A DNA stretch of 38,520 bases, taken from positions 1 to 38,520 of the IMG/VR virus record IMGVR_UViG_3300027659_000087; one strand, given 5' to 3'. The position numbers and the translations under genes were made by a program. Shown one piece after another: positions 4,723 through 38,441 of this stretch. The notes under the pieces are model-generated. The model did no database searches. It saw only the letters and a list, made by a program, of their open reading frames with translations, and was not told where the DNA came from. How positions within the stretch are numbered: the stretch's first letter is position 1; every line of letters begins with the position of its first letter. Source of the stretch: a virus.

Positions 4723-4810
4723 GTGGAAGCTCTCGCCCCCGGTGAACTAATAGTAGCGCATCCGTTACGGCAGCGGCGACCACCCGGCGACCAGTTCATA
4801 ATCTGTCACG
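4723..4810 (-). promoter_or_regulatory. Duplicated upstream region, copy A
   Basis: This segment aligns along its length with 5440-5530 (copy B). Shared blocks on the plus strand are TCGCCCCCGG, GTAGCG, CCGTTACG, CCAGTTCA and CTGT(C/A)AC. On the minus strand it carries a -10-like TACTAT at 4755-4750 preceded by GCGC, 43 nt upstream of the ATG at 4707. It contains one GTTACG (4764-4769), the motif that is clustered at 35324-35586. It partly overlaps the 3' end of the next minus-strand gene. Confidence 0.6.
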
Positions 4811-5439: not shown

Positions 5440-5530
5440 GTGGGAGCCTTTCGCCCCCGGTTCCCATATCGTAGCGTACCCGTTACGCCCTGCCGCCTAT
5501 CCGTATGGCCAGTTCACAACCTGTAACAGA
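5440..5530 (-). promoter_or_regulatory. Duplicated upstream region, copy B
   Basis: This is the counterpart of 4723-4810. On the minus strand it reads CGTAACGGGTACGCTACGAT followed by ATGGGAACCGGGGGCGAAAGG. The -10-like TACGAT is at 5473-5468, 44 nt before the ATG at 5424. It contains GTTACGCC (5482-5489), an 8-mer also present twice in the cluster at 35324-35586. The plus-strand nuclease gene starts 23 nt beyond its end, so it may serve divergent transcription. Confidence 0.6.
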
Positions 5531-5553
5531 GGCGCGCTCCGTTGACTGCTCCC

Positions 5554-5943
5554 ATGAGCGAACACACCACCCAGCAGCGCATTCTCCTGGCCTGCGGCTC
5601 CGGCCCCGTCCGCCTCTGGCGTAACAACGTCGGCACCGGCTGGGCAGGACAGGCGACAAAGATCCAGCGTCGCGGGATGGTGGCTGTGGAGCCCGGTGAC
5701 ATCATCGTGCGCCAAGGCCGCCCGCTCCATGCGGGCCTGTGCGTCGGCAGCTCCGATCTGATCGGTTACCGCCAGGTCGATGGCGTGGCCCAGTTCGTGG
5801 CGCTGGAAGTGAAATCAGCCACCGGGAGGCCAACGGCGCAGCAGACCCAGTTTATAGATCACATCACCGCCGTTGGCGGTTGCGCTGGGATCGTGCGCAG
5901 CGTTGAGGATGCGCGATCGGTGCTCAGCATCCCCACCCCTTAG
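5554..5943 (+). CDS. VRR-NUC domain nuclease
   Basis: A 129-residue protein of the phage VRR-NUC family, in the PD-(D/E)xK nuclease superfamily. The core GSSDLIG...FVALEVKSATGRPT...AQQTQFIDHI carries the conserved Asp, the E-V-K catalytic pair and Gln. It ends GGCAGIVRSVEDA, as in family members. An in-frame TTG lies at 5542 but the ATG at 5554 gives the usual start (MSEHTTQQRILLA). The family has structure-selective or Holliday-junction-type nuclease activity; the neighbouring recombination genes fit that role. Confidence 0.88.
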   Translation: MSEHTTQQRILLACGSGPVRLWRNNVGTGWAGQATKIQRRGMVAVEPGDIIVRQGRPLHAGLCVGSSDLIGYRQVDGVAQFVALEVKSATGRPTAQQTQFIDHITAVGGCAGIVRSVEDARSVLSIPTP

Positions 5944-12675: not shown

Positions 12676-13001
12676 TAGCGAGGCTCCACAACAAGGCGGA
12701 ACCGGGACCCGTGCCGCAGCTGGCGCATGGTGGCTTCCATCCTCGCCACCCGCTGCTCTAGCGCGGCGATGCGGTCGGGCTCGGTGGTCTCAGGCTCAGC
12801 AGATGGCTTCCAGTAGCAGATGGCTTCCAGTAGCACATCCCCATCCCCATCCCCATCCGCCCTAGTCGGCAGCCGGTCTGTGATCCATTCGTCTGTCATG
12901 CGCTGGGGAATTGCGAACCCACCAACCCTAGCCTTTTGGTTCCGCATCTGCACCCCTATAGTGGGGCAGTCTTCAGGATCTGATTTTCGTGGCCGGCTCA
13001 T
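12675..13001 (-). CDS. Hypothetical protein with C-terminal coiled coil
   Basis: Starts MSRPRKSDPEDCPTIGVQ if the ATG at 13001 is used, which overlaps the divergent sigma gene start by 13 nt. The alternative ATG at 12947 (MRNQKARVGG...) avoids the overlap and has AGGGG 5 nt upstream. The C-terminal part is a heptad-like helix (RIAALEQRVARMEATMRQLRHG). A short run of GAT/GGG-type hexamer repeats encodes RADGDGDGD. The function is unknown. Confidence 0.6.
   Translation of the reverse strand: MSRPRKSDPEDCPTIGVQMRNQKARVGGFAIPQRMTDEWITDRLPTRADGDGDGDVLLEAICYWKPSAEPETTEPDRIAALEQRVARMEATMRQLRHGSRFRLVVEPR
12934..12962 (+). promoter_or_regulatory. Candidate promoter of the sigma factor gene
   Basis: TTTTGG (12934-12939), a 17-nt spacer and TATAGT (12957-12962), 27 nt before the GTG start. 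The -10 box is embedded in a short dyad, CCCC-TATAGT-GGGG, which could be an operator. The -35 match is weak. Confidence 0.4.
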
Positions 13002-13930
13002 GGTGGCTTGACACGATCGGCAGGATTCCCCTGCTGACGCCGGCTGAAGAGATTGAGCTAGGAACGCTGATCCAGAAAGGCCAGCAGCCGAACGCGACGC
13101 CACGGGAGAAACGAGCCGGCAGGCGCGCCCGTGATCGGTTTGTGCAGGCCAATCTGCGGCTGGCGGTGAATTATGTCACCAAGCGGTGTCACCGGCTTAG
13201 CAAGCTCCACGGCGGGGTTGAGGATCTGATACAGGCCGCCAATGAAGGGCTTATCAAAGGGGTGGAGCGGTTTGATCCGGCCAGGGGCTACAAGTTCAGC
13301 ACTTATGGATATTGGTGGATTCGGCAGGCGGTCAATACGTTCGCCAACAGTCAACGCAGCATTGCCATTCCCGGCAGCCACAGCCAGCACCTAGGCCGGT
13401 TGGCTGAGATTGAGCGGCGCCTTGCTGGTGAGTTGAGCCGCCCTCCAACACCAGACGAAATTGCCGAAGCGTTGGGATGCAGCGTGGCGGTGCTTGAGCA
13501 GGTGATTGAGAACGGCAGGCCGATTGGCAGCCTGGATCAGGTCGTGAGCGATGATGGCCTAGAGCTGAGCGGATTGGTTGCCACCTACGACCGCAGCATT
13601 GAAGACGAGGAGGAACAGCGTGAACGCTGGCGACAGGCTGAGCAGTTACGCGGACTGATATCCCGGCTGCCGGCGTCGGATCAACGGCTGCTGTCATTGG
13701 CGTGGGGTCTTGATGGTGTGGAGCTCCCCCGCGCTGAGCTGGCCCAGCAGGAGGGGCTGTCAAAGCGGGCGCTGGAGTCAAAGCTGCAGCGACTGCAGGC
13801 GTCCCTGGCGGCGCACTCGGTGCAGCTGGTGTTGGTTGCGGTGTGCAGGGTGCAGCCATCACCGCGGCCGCGGCAGAAACGCAAGCGCCCCGGGTGTGTT
13901 GGTGAGCAGCTTAGGCTGGTGGTGGTGTGA
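12989..13930 (+). CDS. Sigma-70 family RNA polymerase sigma factor
   Basis: A 313-residue SigA/group-2-like sigma factor. Region 1.2 is WWLDTIGRIPLLTPAEEIELG. Region 2 is FVQANLRLAVNYV...GGVEDLIQAANEGLIKGVERFDPARGYKFSTYGYWWIRQAV, followed by an unusual 2.4/3.0 stretch, NSQRSIAIPGSHSQHL. Region 3 is RPPTPDEIAEALGCSV. Region 4 is weaker (LPASDQRLLSLAWGLDG, ELAQQEGLSKRALESKLQRL). It would redirect host RNA polymerase, probably to phage promoters. GTG at 12989 is the only start that keeps region 1.2. The basic C-terminal tail (PSPRPRQKRKRPG) is extra. Confidence 0.92.
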   Translation: MAGSWWLDTIGRIPLLTPAEEIELGTLIQKGQQPNATPREKRAGRRARDRFVQANLRLAVNYVTKRCHRLSKLHGGVEDLIQAANEGLIKGVERFDPARGYKFSTYGYWWIRQAVNTFANSQRSIAIPGSHSQHLGRLAEIERRLAGELSRPPTPDEIAEALGCSVAVLEQVIENGRPIGSLDQVVSDDGLELSGLVATYDRSIEDEEEQRERWRQAEQLRGLISRLPASDQRLLSLAWGLDGVELPRAELAQQEGLSKRALESKLQRLQASLAAHSVQLVLVAVCRVQPSPRPRQKRKRPGCVGEQLRLVVV

Positions 13931-35033: not shown

Positions 35034-35267
35034 TCAGCCCTCCCGCTGACCCATCTCAACATCAAGCAACTCTTCCAGCTTCAGCCGTGCAAGGTCCCAG
35101 TCACTCGGCACGTCCCAGGTCAGGCAATCATCGGTCCTGGCGCTGGTGACGTGCAGGGTTTCGATCGTTTCCCACGATGCCGCCCAGTTCAGGATCAACT
35201 CCTGCCACCAGGTAAGCCATGGAGTGCTGGTGTCGAGCAGCGTGGAGATAGTCGATGTGCGCTTCAT
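35034..35267 (-). CDS. Hypothetical protein, first gene of the late operon (77 aa)
   Basis: MKRTSTISTLLDTSTPWLTWWQELILNWAASWETIETLH... is Trp-rich (six Trp) and ends acidic (KLEELLDVEMGQREG). I recognise no family. It lies 3 nt before the GPZ-like gene and is the first gene downstream of the repeat-rich region at 35324-35586. Confidence 0.6.
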   Translation of the reverse strand: MKRTSTISTLLDTSTPWLTWWQELILNWAASWETIETLHVTSARTDDCLTWDVPSDWDLARLKLEELLDVEMGQREG

Positions 35268-35323
35268 GGCTTGGCGGTGGCTGGTTCAGTCTGGGGATAG
35301 GGCGAACGGCACGCTGGAGGCAT

Positions 35324-35586
35324 GTTACGCCTGTTACGGTCCTGTTACGGTAGGCGTAACACCTGAAACCGACTGCGCCACAGCCGTTCTGCCCTACCTT
35401 GTTACGTTGTTACACCTAAAGTAAAAGAGATATAGATAGAGAGAGAGTGGCCAAAGCGTTACGCTTTACTCCCTTGCACCTATGCCTTTCTCTATAGGGG
35501 GATATATACCCTCCTTTTGACCGTAACAACGTAACAAACCTGTCAGTGACAGGAATCTCGGCGTTACGCCTGCTGTTACAGTTACG
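35324..35586. repeat. GTTAC repeat cluster (iteron-like), candidate origin or operator array
   Basis: In 263 bp I count ten exact GTTACG hexamers: plus orientation at 35324, 35333, 35344, 35401, 35458, 35563 and 35581; reverse (CGTAAC) at 35355, 35522 and 35530. GTTACA occurs at 35409 and 35575. The first four are spaced 9, 11 and 11 nt. Dyads include GTTACGCC/GGCGTAAC (35324/35353), AAAGCG-TTA-CGCTTT (35453-35467) and CCTGTC-AGT-GACAGG (35539-35553). AT-rich stretches lie at 35413-35445 and 35485-35520. There is no gene here except the last codons of the primase. Position next to the primase fits an origin. Confidence 0.75.
35501..35529 (-). promoter_or_regulatory. Candidate late-operon promoter
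   Basis: On the minus strand, TTGTTA (35529-35524), a 17-nt spacer and TATATC (35506-35501), reading toward the gene at 35267. It overlaps two CGTAAC repeats, so a protein binding them could control it. A plus-strand counterpart, TTGTTA (35407-35412), 18 nt, TATAGA (35431-35436), has no gene downstream. Confidence 0.4.
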
Positions 35587-38257
35587 GTCCAGTGCTTGGA
35601 AAGGCCAATGAAACGGCCCTGCTGACCCCAGCAAGGCCTTTGAAGCGCACAACGCCTGCCTTGGATGCTGCAGGCAGCCTGCCCAGCACGGTGGCGTAAC
35701 AATCGGCCCAGGCCGTGCCATCAAGGATGCGACGCATCCCCTTGGCGCTGTTGCTTACGAAGATCCGATCGCTTTCGATCTTGATGCCGATGCGGCCTAG
35801 GTGCGCCTCGGCCGCGGTCATGGTTATCTCCATGGATGTGGCAATGCCGCGGGCCAGCTCCACCAGCTCCCAGACGGTGCGGTTGTAGGCCGAGCCGCGG
35901 TCACCTTCCACCCTGACCTGGTGCTGGAGGATGTGCTGCAGGCAGCGCTCTTCATCGGCTTCGGTCTGCTCGGTGTAAGCGTCCCAGTTGTTGGCATCTA
36001 TGAGCTGGTAGGCGTCGTCAATGGTGGCTGGCCTGGAGTTGGCTAGGGACCAGGCGCCGGCCAGCAGGGTGCCGTATTGATCGCCTTGGCGCTGGCTGTC
36101 GAAGCGTTCAGCAGCAGCACGGCGGAACACTGCCACCGAATCACGAATGATGGGGATCTGGCCCACCATGCGCAGCAGTAGGCGATGCCCCATCTCGGCG
36201 GTGCATAGGCGGGTTATGTCGGCGTCGAGCGCTGACCAGTGAGCAGTGCGCTGAACCTTGGGCAGGTATGAAGGATTGCGCAGGGTGAGCTGCGCGAAGC
36301 GGGATTGATCGGCGCCTTGCTTTAGCGCGGTGGAGATTGAGCACAGCAGGAACATTGATCGGATGGTGAACGATTGCGCCGTGCCATCGGCGCCACCTTT
36401 GCCGATCACGCCACGGCCTGAGCTGCTGGCGACACGGGCTAGGGAGAGAATGTTCTGAATGCGTTGACGGTCGGCCTTCTCATTGCTCTCGGCTTCATCA
36501 AAGATCACCGGAATGGCATCGGCGCGCAGCTGCTGACGGATGAAGGCTTCGGTGGTGTTGCCTTCGGGGAATAGGGCCATTGACTCCAGCAGGATGCCGA
36601 TGAAGCGATCAAGGATGGCGCTCTTGCCAGATCCTGCTGATGCGGTGAGCCAGACGTGCGGCCGCCATTGCATGGCGCCACAGATCGGAGCTAAGGCAAT
36701 CCAGCCGGCCAGCAGCAGGCCTGATGCAGGGACTTCCCAATGGAAGCGTGATGCGATATCGATGATCTCCATGCCGAGCTCATCAGAGAGCAGCTCAAGG
36801 CGCTTGGGTAGGTCGATCGATGCCAGGCGCTGGTAGTGGAACTTTGAGTTGGCGGTTTTTCTTATTGAGTGCTCGGCGCCATCAATCAGCAGGCGATCAC
36901 CTAGGTGCAGCACGGAGCGGCCGGCGTCCCACCATGCGCCGCGGCCACGGATGCGATCAGCGCTGAAGATGCCGACAGCGGCCTGAGTCTCGAATAGGGA
37001 GCTGGCAGCAGCCAGCCAGTTGGCGCCGGTCTTGGATGGGAAGAGTGTTTCCCAGTAGGAGAGCGGCGCAAGGGTAAGCAGGTTGGTGCCGGTGTGTGAG
37101 CTGCGCGATAGCGAGATCACCTGCCCGGTGCTGCCTGGTTGGTAGTAGTAGACGCCTTCACTGAATCCCAGGCAGACGAAAGGTGCGTTGGTGGGTATCT
37201 CTGCAGCGGGTGGCGTTGGCGCTGCCGTGGCCGGCGTTGGCTCTGGCGCAGGCAGCTCGACAGGTTTGGCACGCTTAGCCATGGATTCAGCGGCAATAGC
37301 CGGCGTCCATTTCTGTGCCAGCGCATCGGCTAGGTCCCAGCCCTCGGGGAGGTGCTCGGGTGGGTTGACGACCTGAACGTTGCAGCCGAGTTCAAGGAGC
37401 GCTACGGCGAGCTTGGCCATGCACTCGCGGCCCTTGGCATCGGCATCAGGCCAGAGGGTGCAGCTACGGCCGGCGATGGGTTGCCAATCGGTGTAAGCCC
37501 AGCCAGCTGTACCACCAGTCCATGCAATGCAGACGTGGCCGGGGAATAACTGGGTAGCTGCATCGGTCTTGCCCTCGCCCTCGGAGATTAGAACCGGATC
37601 AGTGGGGCGGTCGTTGAGATCGGGCAGGCGGTAGATAAATCGGGGCTCAGGCCAATGGGACTGGAAAGCGTCGCGTTTGCTGGGGTAGTGCCAGCGGCCA
37701 TCGATCCAGGTGCGCTGGACGAACAGTTTTTGGGGTTTGCCGTTTTTGGGCGGCATCGGCACGCGTTGCACCCAGTAGCAGGGATTGGCGCGATCAGGGC
37801 CATACGGGAACTGAGCTACGGCGCTGCCAAGTGCCGGCGGTGGTGTCCCTGCTGGCGGGGTCTCGGGAATGCGATGCGGCCGGCCTTTGGCCTTGGGTTT
37901 GGCTGCTGCTGGCGGTCGTGCTGGGGTTGGATCCACCGGCCCGGTCGAGCTGGTGCCTAGGTGCTGCTCAATCCGCCGGCAGGCCTGCTTGAAATCCCAG
38001 CCGGTCACCCTGGTGAGCAGGTCCATGCCGGAGCCGCCACCGCCGAGACGGTCCTTGCCGCCGCAGTGTGAGCAGAACCATCCGCCATTGCCGGTGTCGT
38101 CATCCCACTTGAACCGGGTGTTGCCGGCGTCACCCGAGAGCACGCGACACGATGGACATGGCCCTTCGCGTTCGCATAGATCGCCCGGAGCAATTCCCGC
38201 GAGCGCTCCCAGCAGCTCCGGCCACCGGCCAGAGGCAGCGTCAATGGCTGATGGCAT
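35582..38257 (-). CDS. Primase-helicase: zinc ribbon, TOPRIM and DUF927-like ATPase
   Basis: An 891-residue replication protein. An N-terminal zinc ribbon has CPSC at 34-37 and CSHC at 62-65 around NTRFKWDDD. The TOPRIM-like part has LISEGEGK (223-230, Glu) and WPDADAKG (269-276, Asp-x-Asp). After a Pro/Ala linker (331-357), the helicase part has Walker A ASAGSGKSAI (539-548) and Walker B VIFDEAES (584-591), in the style of DUF927 helicases. It would prime and unwind the phage origin. The start is ATG 38257, 4 nt after the upstream stop; an extension to 38299 would overlap that gene. The stop lies in the GTTAC cluster. Confidence 0.9.
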   Translation of the reverse strand: MPSAIDAASGRWPELLGALAGIAPGDLCEREGPCPSCRVLSGDAGNTRFKWDDDTGNGGWFCSHCGGKDRLGGGGSGMDLLTRVTGWDFKQACRRIEQHLGTSSTGPVDPTPARPPAAAKPKAKGRPHRIPETPPAGTPPPALGSAVAQFPYGPDRANPCYWVQRVPMPPKNGKPQKLFVQRTWIDGRWHYPSKRDAFQSHWPEPRFIYRLPDLNDRPTDPVLISEGEGKTDAATQLFPGHVCIAWTGGTAGWAYTDWQPIAGRSCTLWPDADAKGRECMAKLAVALLELGCNVQVVNPPEHLPEGWDLADALAQKWTPAIAAESMAKRAKPVELPAPEPTPATAAPTPPAAEIPTNAPFVCLGFSEGVYYYQPGSTGQVISLSRSSHTGTNLLTLAPLSYWETLFPSKTGANWLAAASSLFETQAAVGIFSADRIRGRGAWWDAGRSVLHLGDRLLIDGAEHSIRKTANSKFHYQRLASIDLPKRLELLSDELGMEIIDIASRFHWEVPASGLLLAGWIALAPICGAMQWRPHVWLTASAGSGKSAILDRFIGILLESMALFPEGNTTEAFIRQQLRADAIPVIFDEAESNEKADRQRIQNILSLARVASSSGRGVIGKGGADGTAQSFTIRSMFLLCSISTALKQGADQSRFAQLTLRNPSYLPKVQRTAHWSALDADITRLCTAEMGHRLLLRMVGQIPIIRDSVAVFRRAAAERFDSQRQGDQYGTLLAGAWSLANSRPATIDDAYQLIDANNWDAYTEQTEADEERCLQHILQHQVRVEGDRGSAYNRTVWELVELARGIATSMEITMTAAEAHLGRIGIKIESDRIFVSNSAKGMRRILDGTAWADCYATVLGRLPAASKAGVVRFKGLAGVSRAVSLAFPSTGP

Positions 38258-38261
38258 GGGG

Positions 38262-38441
38262 TTAGGCCGTCGCCACGCGGCCAGGCCCTTGGCGCTCAAT
38301 ATCGCGGACGATCAGCCGGCGCAGGTATGCAGCACGGCTGCAGCCCTCGTATTGAGACTGGACATCGAGGTGCTCAACGTGCTCAGTGGCGAGCTCAATC
38401 GTTACGCAGCGCTTGCCTTCAGCAGTGGGCCAACCGGGCAT
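38262..38441 (-). CDS. Small ribbon-helix-helix protein (59 aa)
   Basis: ATG at 38441, TAA at 38264-38262, 4 nt before the primase start. MPGWPTAEGKRCVTIELATE has the strand of a CopG/Arc fold (RCVTIELAT), followed by two helices (HVEHLDVQSQYEG, SRAAYLRRLIVRDIERQ). Such proteins bind DNA as dimers and often repress their own promoter. It heads the primase operon, so it is a candidate to bind the GTTAC repeats or the promoter region at 38442-38520. Confidence 0.65.
   Translation of the reverse strand: MPGWPTAEGKRCVTIELATEHVEHLDVQSQYEGCSRAAYLRRLIVRDIERQGPGRVATA

Follow-up and report, generated by a model that had tools for sequence, protein, structure and literature searches.

Background

The alpha protein of phage P4, a satellite, combines primase and helicase in a fusion and has an origin-binding domain at its C-terminus; repeats (ori/crr) lie behind its gene. 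SaPI Rep is described as recognising, through its C-terminal domain, an iteron origin that immediately follows its gene, apparently in the form of two hexamers, and the C-terminal domain of Cch2 binds direct repeats downstream of its operon (PMC7581432). PICI origins contain two iteron sets around an AT-rich region (PMC6092414). In PLE RepA the DNA-binding domain and the origin have been swapped recurrently, which was attributed to an origin-directed nuclease (PMC8263062). The kind of module described below, an initiator with an adjacent iteron origin, is already known from SaPI/PICI satellites and from SCCmec.

The DNA analysed here (the window) is the whole 38,520-nucleotide stretch of a 38.5-kb virus contig (IMG/VR record IMGVR_UViG_3300027659_000087), which encodes terminase, portal, major head, tape measure and tail proteins. 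An RNA polymerase sigma factor gene is located at 12989-13930 (phrog_351, 8.5e-51). Positions 35323-35586 are read, with a probability of about 0.85, as an origin whose iterons would be recognised by the C-terminal domain (CTD) of the neighboring primase-helicase; domain and origin would form a swappable cassette, with residue 885 reading the last bases of the repeat word.

Repeat array and primase-helicase

The array lies immediately behind the 3' end of the primase-helicase gene, the stop codon of which falls within the iteron at 35581-35586. All genes around the array point in one direction, and those downstream of it on the same strand are structural. The features of the locus are as follows.

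35582-38299, minus strand: primase-helicase gene, with zinc ribbon, TOPRIM (DnaG-type), AAA+ helicase and C-terminal domain
35585-35908, minus strand: CTD, about residues 798-905, proposed iteron reader, which tracks the word
35645-35647, minus strand: codon of R885, the residue that follows the last bases of the iteron word
35695-35701, plus strand: extra full CGTAACA copy within the primase gene
35522-35586, minus strand: primase-proximal half of the putative origin, at the same place in relatives; iterons 35581-35586, 35575-35580, 35563-35568, 35530-35536 and 35522-35528
35458-35463: lone iteron between the two AT-rich stretches
35414-35442, no strand: AT-rich/pyrimidine tract, proposed from its AT content as DNA-unwinding element
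35323-35414, minus strand: distal half of the putative origin, drawn from the repeat positions; iterons 35409-35414, 35400-35406, 35355-35361, 35343-35349, 35332-35338 and 35323-35329

The preliminary description of this DNA had reported a dense GTTAC cluster, and its counts were reproduced: ten GTTACG hexamers in both orientations are present in 35324-35586, two GTTACA are found at 35409-35414 and 35575-35580, and the first four repeats, described as phased at 9-11 nt, are spaced 9, 11 and 11 nt apart. Between the repeats, where dyads and AT-rich tracts had been reported, there is a perfect inverted pair of 15 nt (35399-35413 / 35523-35537), and a small hairpin is seen as well. AT-rich stretches lie near 35414-35442, which ranks with the most AT-rich 24-mers in the window, and at about 35491-35520. 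The whole window contains 22 GTTACG (6.9 expected), and the densest 263-bp stretch holds 12 GTTAC/GTAAC, compared with a maximum of 6 in 200 shuffles. The small hairpin, CCTGTCACTGACAGG at 35539-35553, is terminator-like; it lies between the primase-proximal iterons and is followed by TTTG.

The repeat unit is better described as a 7-bp word, CGTAACA on the primase strand. Outside the array region, a full CGTAACA occurs in the window as a single copy, at 5620. It had been suggested that the protein binding the array also serves sites at 4764 and 5482; this was not supported, as the GTTACG found there is not the full CGTAACA. The intergenic stretches 4730-4780 and 5440-5540 (TAGTAGCGCATCCGTTACG and ATCGTAGCGTACCCGTTACG) resemble each other, contain GTTACG without the full iteron, and are probably duplicated regulatory regions. 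A nucleotide search of the phage collection with the 801 bp around the array gave no match.

The zinc ribbon of the primase-helicase matches Pfam Zn_Ribbon_Prim (1.6e-7), the protein matches the PHROG DNA primase (2.6e-131), and the TOPRIM domain has fold matches to DnaG (Z about 15). The top Foldseek match of the full model was SCCmec Cch (5dgk, E 4e-8), which aligned to model residues 364-904 (Z 14.2), with MCM helicases reaching similar scores. No DUF927 match for the helicase part was present among the Pfam matches listed. The CTD alone is predicted with a pLDDT of 94 to consist of strands and helices ending in a beta-hairpin, and residue 885 is placed by the predicted model at the end of the first strand of this hairpin. 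Pfam, PDB-sequence and Foldseek searches with the CTD gave no significant match. VIA-align, applied to the Foldseek candidates, ranked the C-terminal domain of SaPIbov1 Rep first (8tch, residues 459-554; Z 3.0), with an equal score for winged-helix domains of interferon regulatory factors; for the modelled fold this is a hint only of kinship with SaPIbov1 Rep.

Conservation in related phages

Several hundred related loci, many of them from the same contigs, were collected from viral and genome collections; the first set comprised 153 distinct loci, 144 of them with a usable word. The preliminary description had proposed a comparison of spacing among relatives, and the position and the symmetric layout of the array were found to be conserved. 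Of about 150 related phage loci, most have a repeat array that follows the primase at the same place. Most of the first 80 loci (46-92% identity) have 7-14 GTTAC copies no more than 600 bp from the primase stop, and most of the remainder have a different repeated word at the same place. Written in the CG-first orientation, the words are CGTAACA, CGTTACA, CGTTAGG, CGTAAGA, CGTGAGA, CGTAATG, CGGAACA, CGCAACA, CGTTAGA and rarer ones, and all iteron copies within one array switch word together. In two loci (L017, L018), whose primases are about 60% identical to that of the window, no obvious iteron array follows the gene. Of 144 loci, 81 have the primase stop codon within an iteron; GTAAC, GTTAG and GTGAG each include a stop codon.

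The layout was computed on 67 non-redundant origins. The AT-rich tract lies a median of 140 bp behind the stop, its best 24-mer averages 81% AT, and it is flanked by a mean of 5.1 and 5.7 iterons on either side. The inner pair of iterons, usually spaced 8-9 bp, has the orientation -- on the primase side (59 of 66 origins) and ++ on the distal side (51 of 67); the perfect 15-nt inverted repeat is the form that these inverted inner pairs take in the window. The dyad CCTTGC..GCAAGG recurs between iterons. Conserved hairpins between iterons were considered but are not claimed, the stems barely exceeding those of shuffles (4.15 vs 3.60 pairs on the left, 3.93 vs 3.73 on the right).

In Synechococcus phage S-H1, which is in culture, the arrangement is the same and the repeats read GTTAGG/GTTCGG. 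Because most close relatives in the genome collection come from Cyanobium, Synechococcus and Vulcanococcus genomes, a picocyanobacterial host range is suggested for the phage group. Several picocyanobacterial genomes carry 2-5 relatives of the primase-origin module each, often sharing one word (L325, L327, L345, L364; L340, L342, L349, L351, L363; L344, L350). Replicon incompatibility, under which co-resident prophages need different words, is not supported and is no evident driver of word diversity, since several copies in some hosts share one word.

Covariation of the CTD with the repeat word

At least three clear natural swaps of the CTD together with the origin are seen in the alignments (core 96-99%, CTD 37-62% identical). 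The primases of the window and of L010 share 96% identity over the core, against 37% over the final 105 or so residues, and their words are CGTAACA and CGCAACA, respectively; nucleotide similarity between the two is lost only over the CTD, the origin and the sequence immediately flanking it, beyond which it recovers to 84%. L057 (CGGAACA) and L020 (CGTAACA) share 99% of the core and 60% of the CTD, and the CTD of L057 resembles those of the otherwise distant L022 and L064, which have the word of L057. The third swap is that of L203 and L212 (core 97%, CTD 62% identical); further, weaker cases exist. Near-identical CTDs with different words (L202, L208, L211-216; L121/L124) looked like counterexamples but were traced to word-calling artefacts of mixed arrays.

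Word identity was also scanned along the primase, with correction for core identity, in 487 pairs whose cores were at least 0.80 identical. The segments 801-840, 841-880 and 881-905 clearly track the word, with z of 4.7, 5.9 and 9.0, and all other primase segments in these pairs gave z below 2. The CTD and the origin are adjacent DNA, so that co-transfer alone could link them; single columns were therefore searched. Among columns 380-905, residue 885 ranked first (p 1.4e-9; next column 4.3e-5), where the p-values assume exchangeable branches and are usable as a ranking, not as exact probabilities. The residue directly precedes the invariant F886 and changes 12 times on the helicase-core tree, along with the word tail. 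All 94 loci with the tail ACA have R at this position, all 24 with AGG have W, all 20 with AGA have Y or H, and ATG/ATT goes with H; the lone exception is L068, a locus with a weakly called word.

The rule for residue 885 was written down before new loci were fetched. The new set comprised 57 CTDs with no more than 95% identity to the first set, of which 46 had both a rule residue and a word above the 99th shuffle percentile. The strict three-base rule was correct for 34 of these 46 and failed for 12. A post hoc rule for the last two bases was correct for 41 (permutation mean 19.5, maximum 29), and a post hoc contrast at base 6 alone, C with R and G or T with W, Y or H, for all 46; base 6 was already the strongest association in the first set. 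S883, which accompanied G at word position 4 in six of six cases of the first set, was dropped when L234 in the new set broke the pattern. The single-column result argues against mere linkage and falls short of proof of contact; an apparent one-residue recognition code for the iteron word is suggested by these alignments.

Proposed mechanism

The repeat cluster is very probably the site where the virus starts DNA copying, and its repeats are very likely read by the CTD, to judge from the comparison of sequences. An iteron origin beside its primase-helicase was among the proposals of the preliminary description, and this one is strongly supported by the conserved position, the symmetry about the AT-rich tract and the coevolution with the primase CTD. 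In the proposed mechanism the CTD (about 105 residues) would bind the 7-bp iterons CGTAACA. The primase-helicase would combine a DnaG-type (TOPRIM) primase with a self-loading AAA+ initiator helicase, and two oppositely oriented assemblies, probably hexamers, would form on the halves that flank the AT-rich tract. These would melt the tract, load as helicases and prime synthesis. The CTD and the origin may act as a specificity cassette that phages exchange by recombination in one piece, and residue 885 may help to read the end of the word, an R going with C at base 6 and a W, Y or H with G or T. The wider proposal of a portable 'replicon identity' cassette, in which one residue picks the last bases and exchange possibly provides escape from satellites or origin-directed nucleases, is tentative and given rather less than even odds.

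Alternative explanations

Iterons serve copy control in many plasmids, and the array could mainly be a control element, at which binding of the primase-helicase limits re-initiation or handcuffs copies while initiation takes place elsewhere. The GC skew would agree with this, since it leaves the array unmarked, with its lowest point at 12.05 kb and a further, local minimum at 34.5 kb; it is confounded by gene direction. Control of this type is nevertheless considered improbable, because an AT-rich tract between inverted iteron pairs is the layout of an origin, found also in PICI origins (PMC6092414), and because the window has no second cluster of the 7-bp word.

The position of the array between the primase gene and the structural genes had also prompted the proposal of a cluster of operators for a separate regulator, such as the 59-aa ORF, switching between early primase and late structural transcription. 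The promoter-like boxes reported over the repeats were not recovered, no sigma-70-like promoter being found in 35100-35800, and the surrounding genes all share one direction. Between loci the downstream genes vary whereas the array remains beside the primase, and it is the primase CTD that the word tracks. The 59-aa ORF itself, put forward as the binder, is recognisable in only 8 of 93 loci, a count limited by the shortness of the protein. An operator cluster is therefore rated as quite unlikely, below a control element. A recognition site for packaging (pac/cos) is given hardly any weight: in the window the terminase genes are indeed only about 1.1-3.6 kb away from the array, but across relatives the array keeps company with the primase, and homologues of the large and small terminase were detected downstream of it in 15 and 2 of 93 loci, respectively, counts from which divergent terminases could have escaped. 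The origin read by the CTD remains the preferred explanation.

Comparison with known systems

The TOPRIM-fused version in tailed phages of this group, the breadth of word diversity, the cassette swaps and the association of residue and word were not found in the openly licensed papers searched. The locus provides a candidate origin and initiator for tailed phages related to picocyanobacterial prophages, for which no description was found in the literature searched. Its relatives add a set of naturally swapped domains, and with them comes a one-residue hypothesis on the way in which an initiator may adopt a new DNA word.

Like phage P4 alpha, to which it is likened by description only, the protein is a fused primase-helicase with repeats behind its gene; the P4 alpha structure was absent among the fold matches listed. 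As in SaPI/PICI elements (SaPIbov1 Rep, SaPI5 PriRep, E. coli PICI pri-rep-ori), an iteron array lies directly downstream of an initiator helicase gene, two iteron sets flank an AT-rich region, and the CTD would be the origin reader, to which covariation, swaps and the residue association point here. In contrast to SaPIbov1 and SaPI5, which have AEP-type primases (PMC7581432), the primase fused to the helicase is of the TOPRIM/DnaG type, and the carrier is not a satellite but a tailed phage that encodes capsid and tail proteins of its own. The fused primase is absent in SCCmec Cch/Cch2, and the Cch2 site has three AAGTG iterons where about twelve 7-bp iterons are present here. In Vibrio cholerae PLE RepA the DNA-binding domain and the iterons covary and swap together (PMC8263062), as the putative iteron-reading CTD and the array do here. 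RepA differs in that it belongs to the RepA_N family, is without primase or helicase, has its DNA-binding domain at the N-terminus and is carried by a satellite. These comparisons suggest that PICI-like rep-ori modules occur beyond satellites, and that the identity of phage origins turns over fast, as reported for the PLE satellites of Vibrio, which face an origin-directed nuclease.
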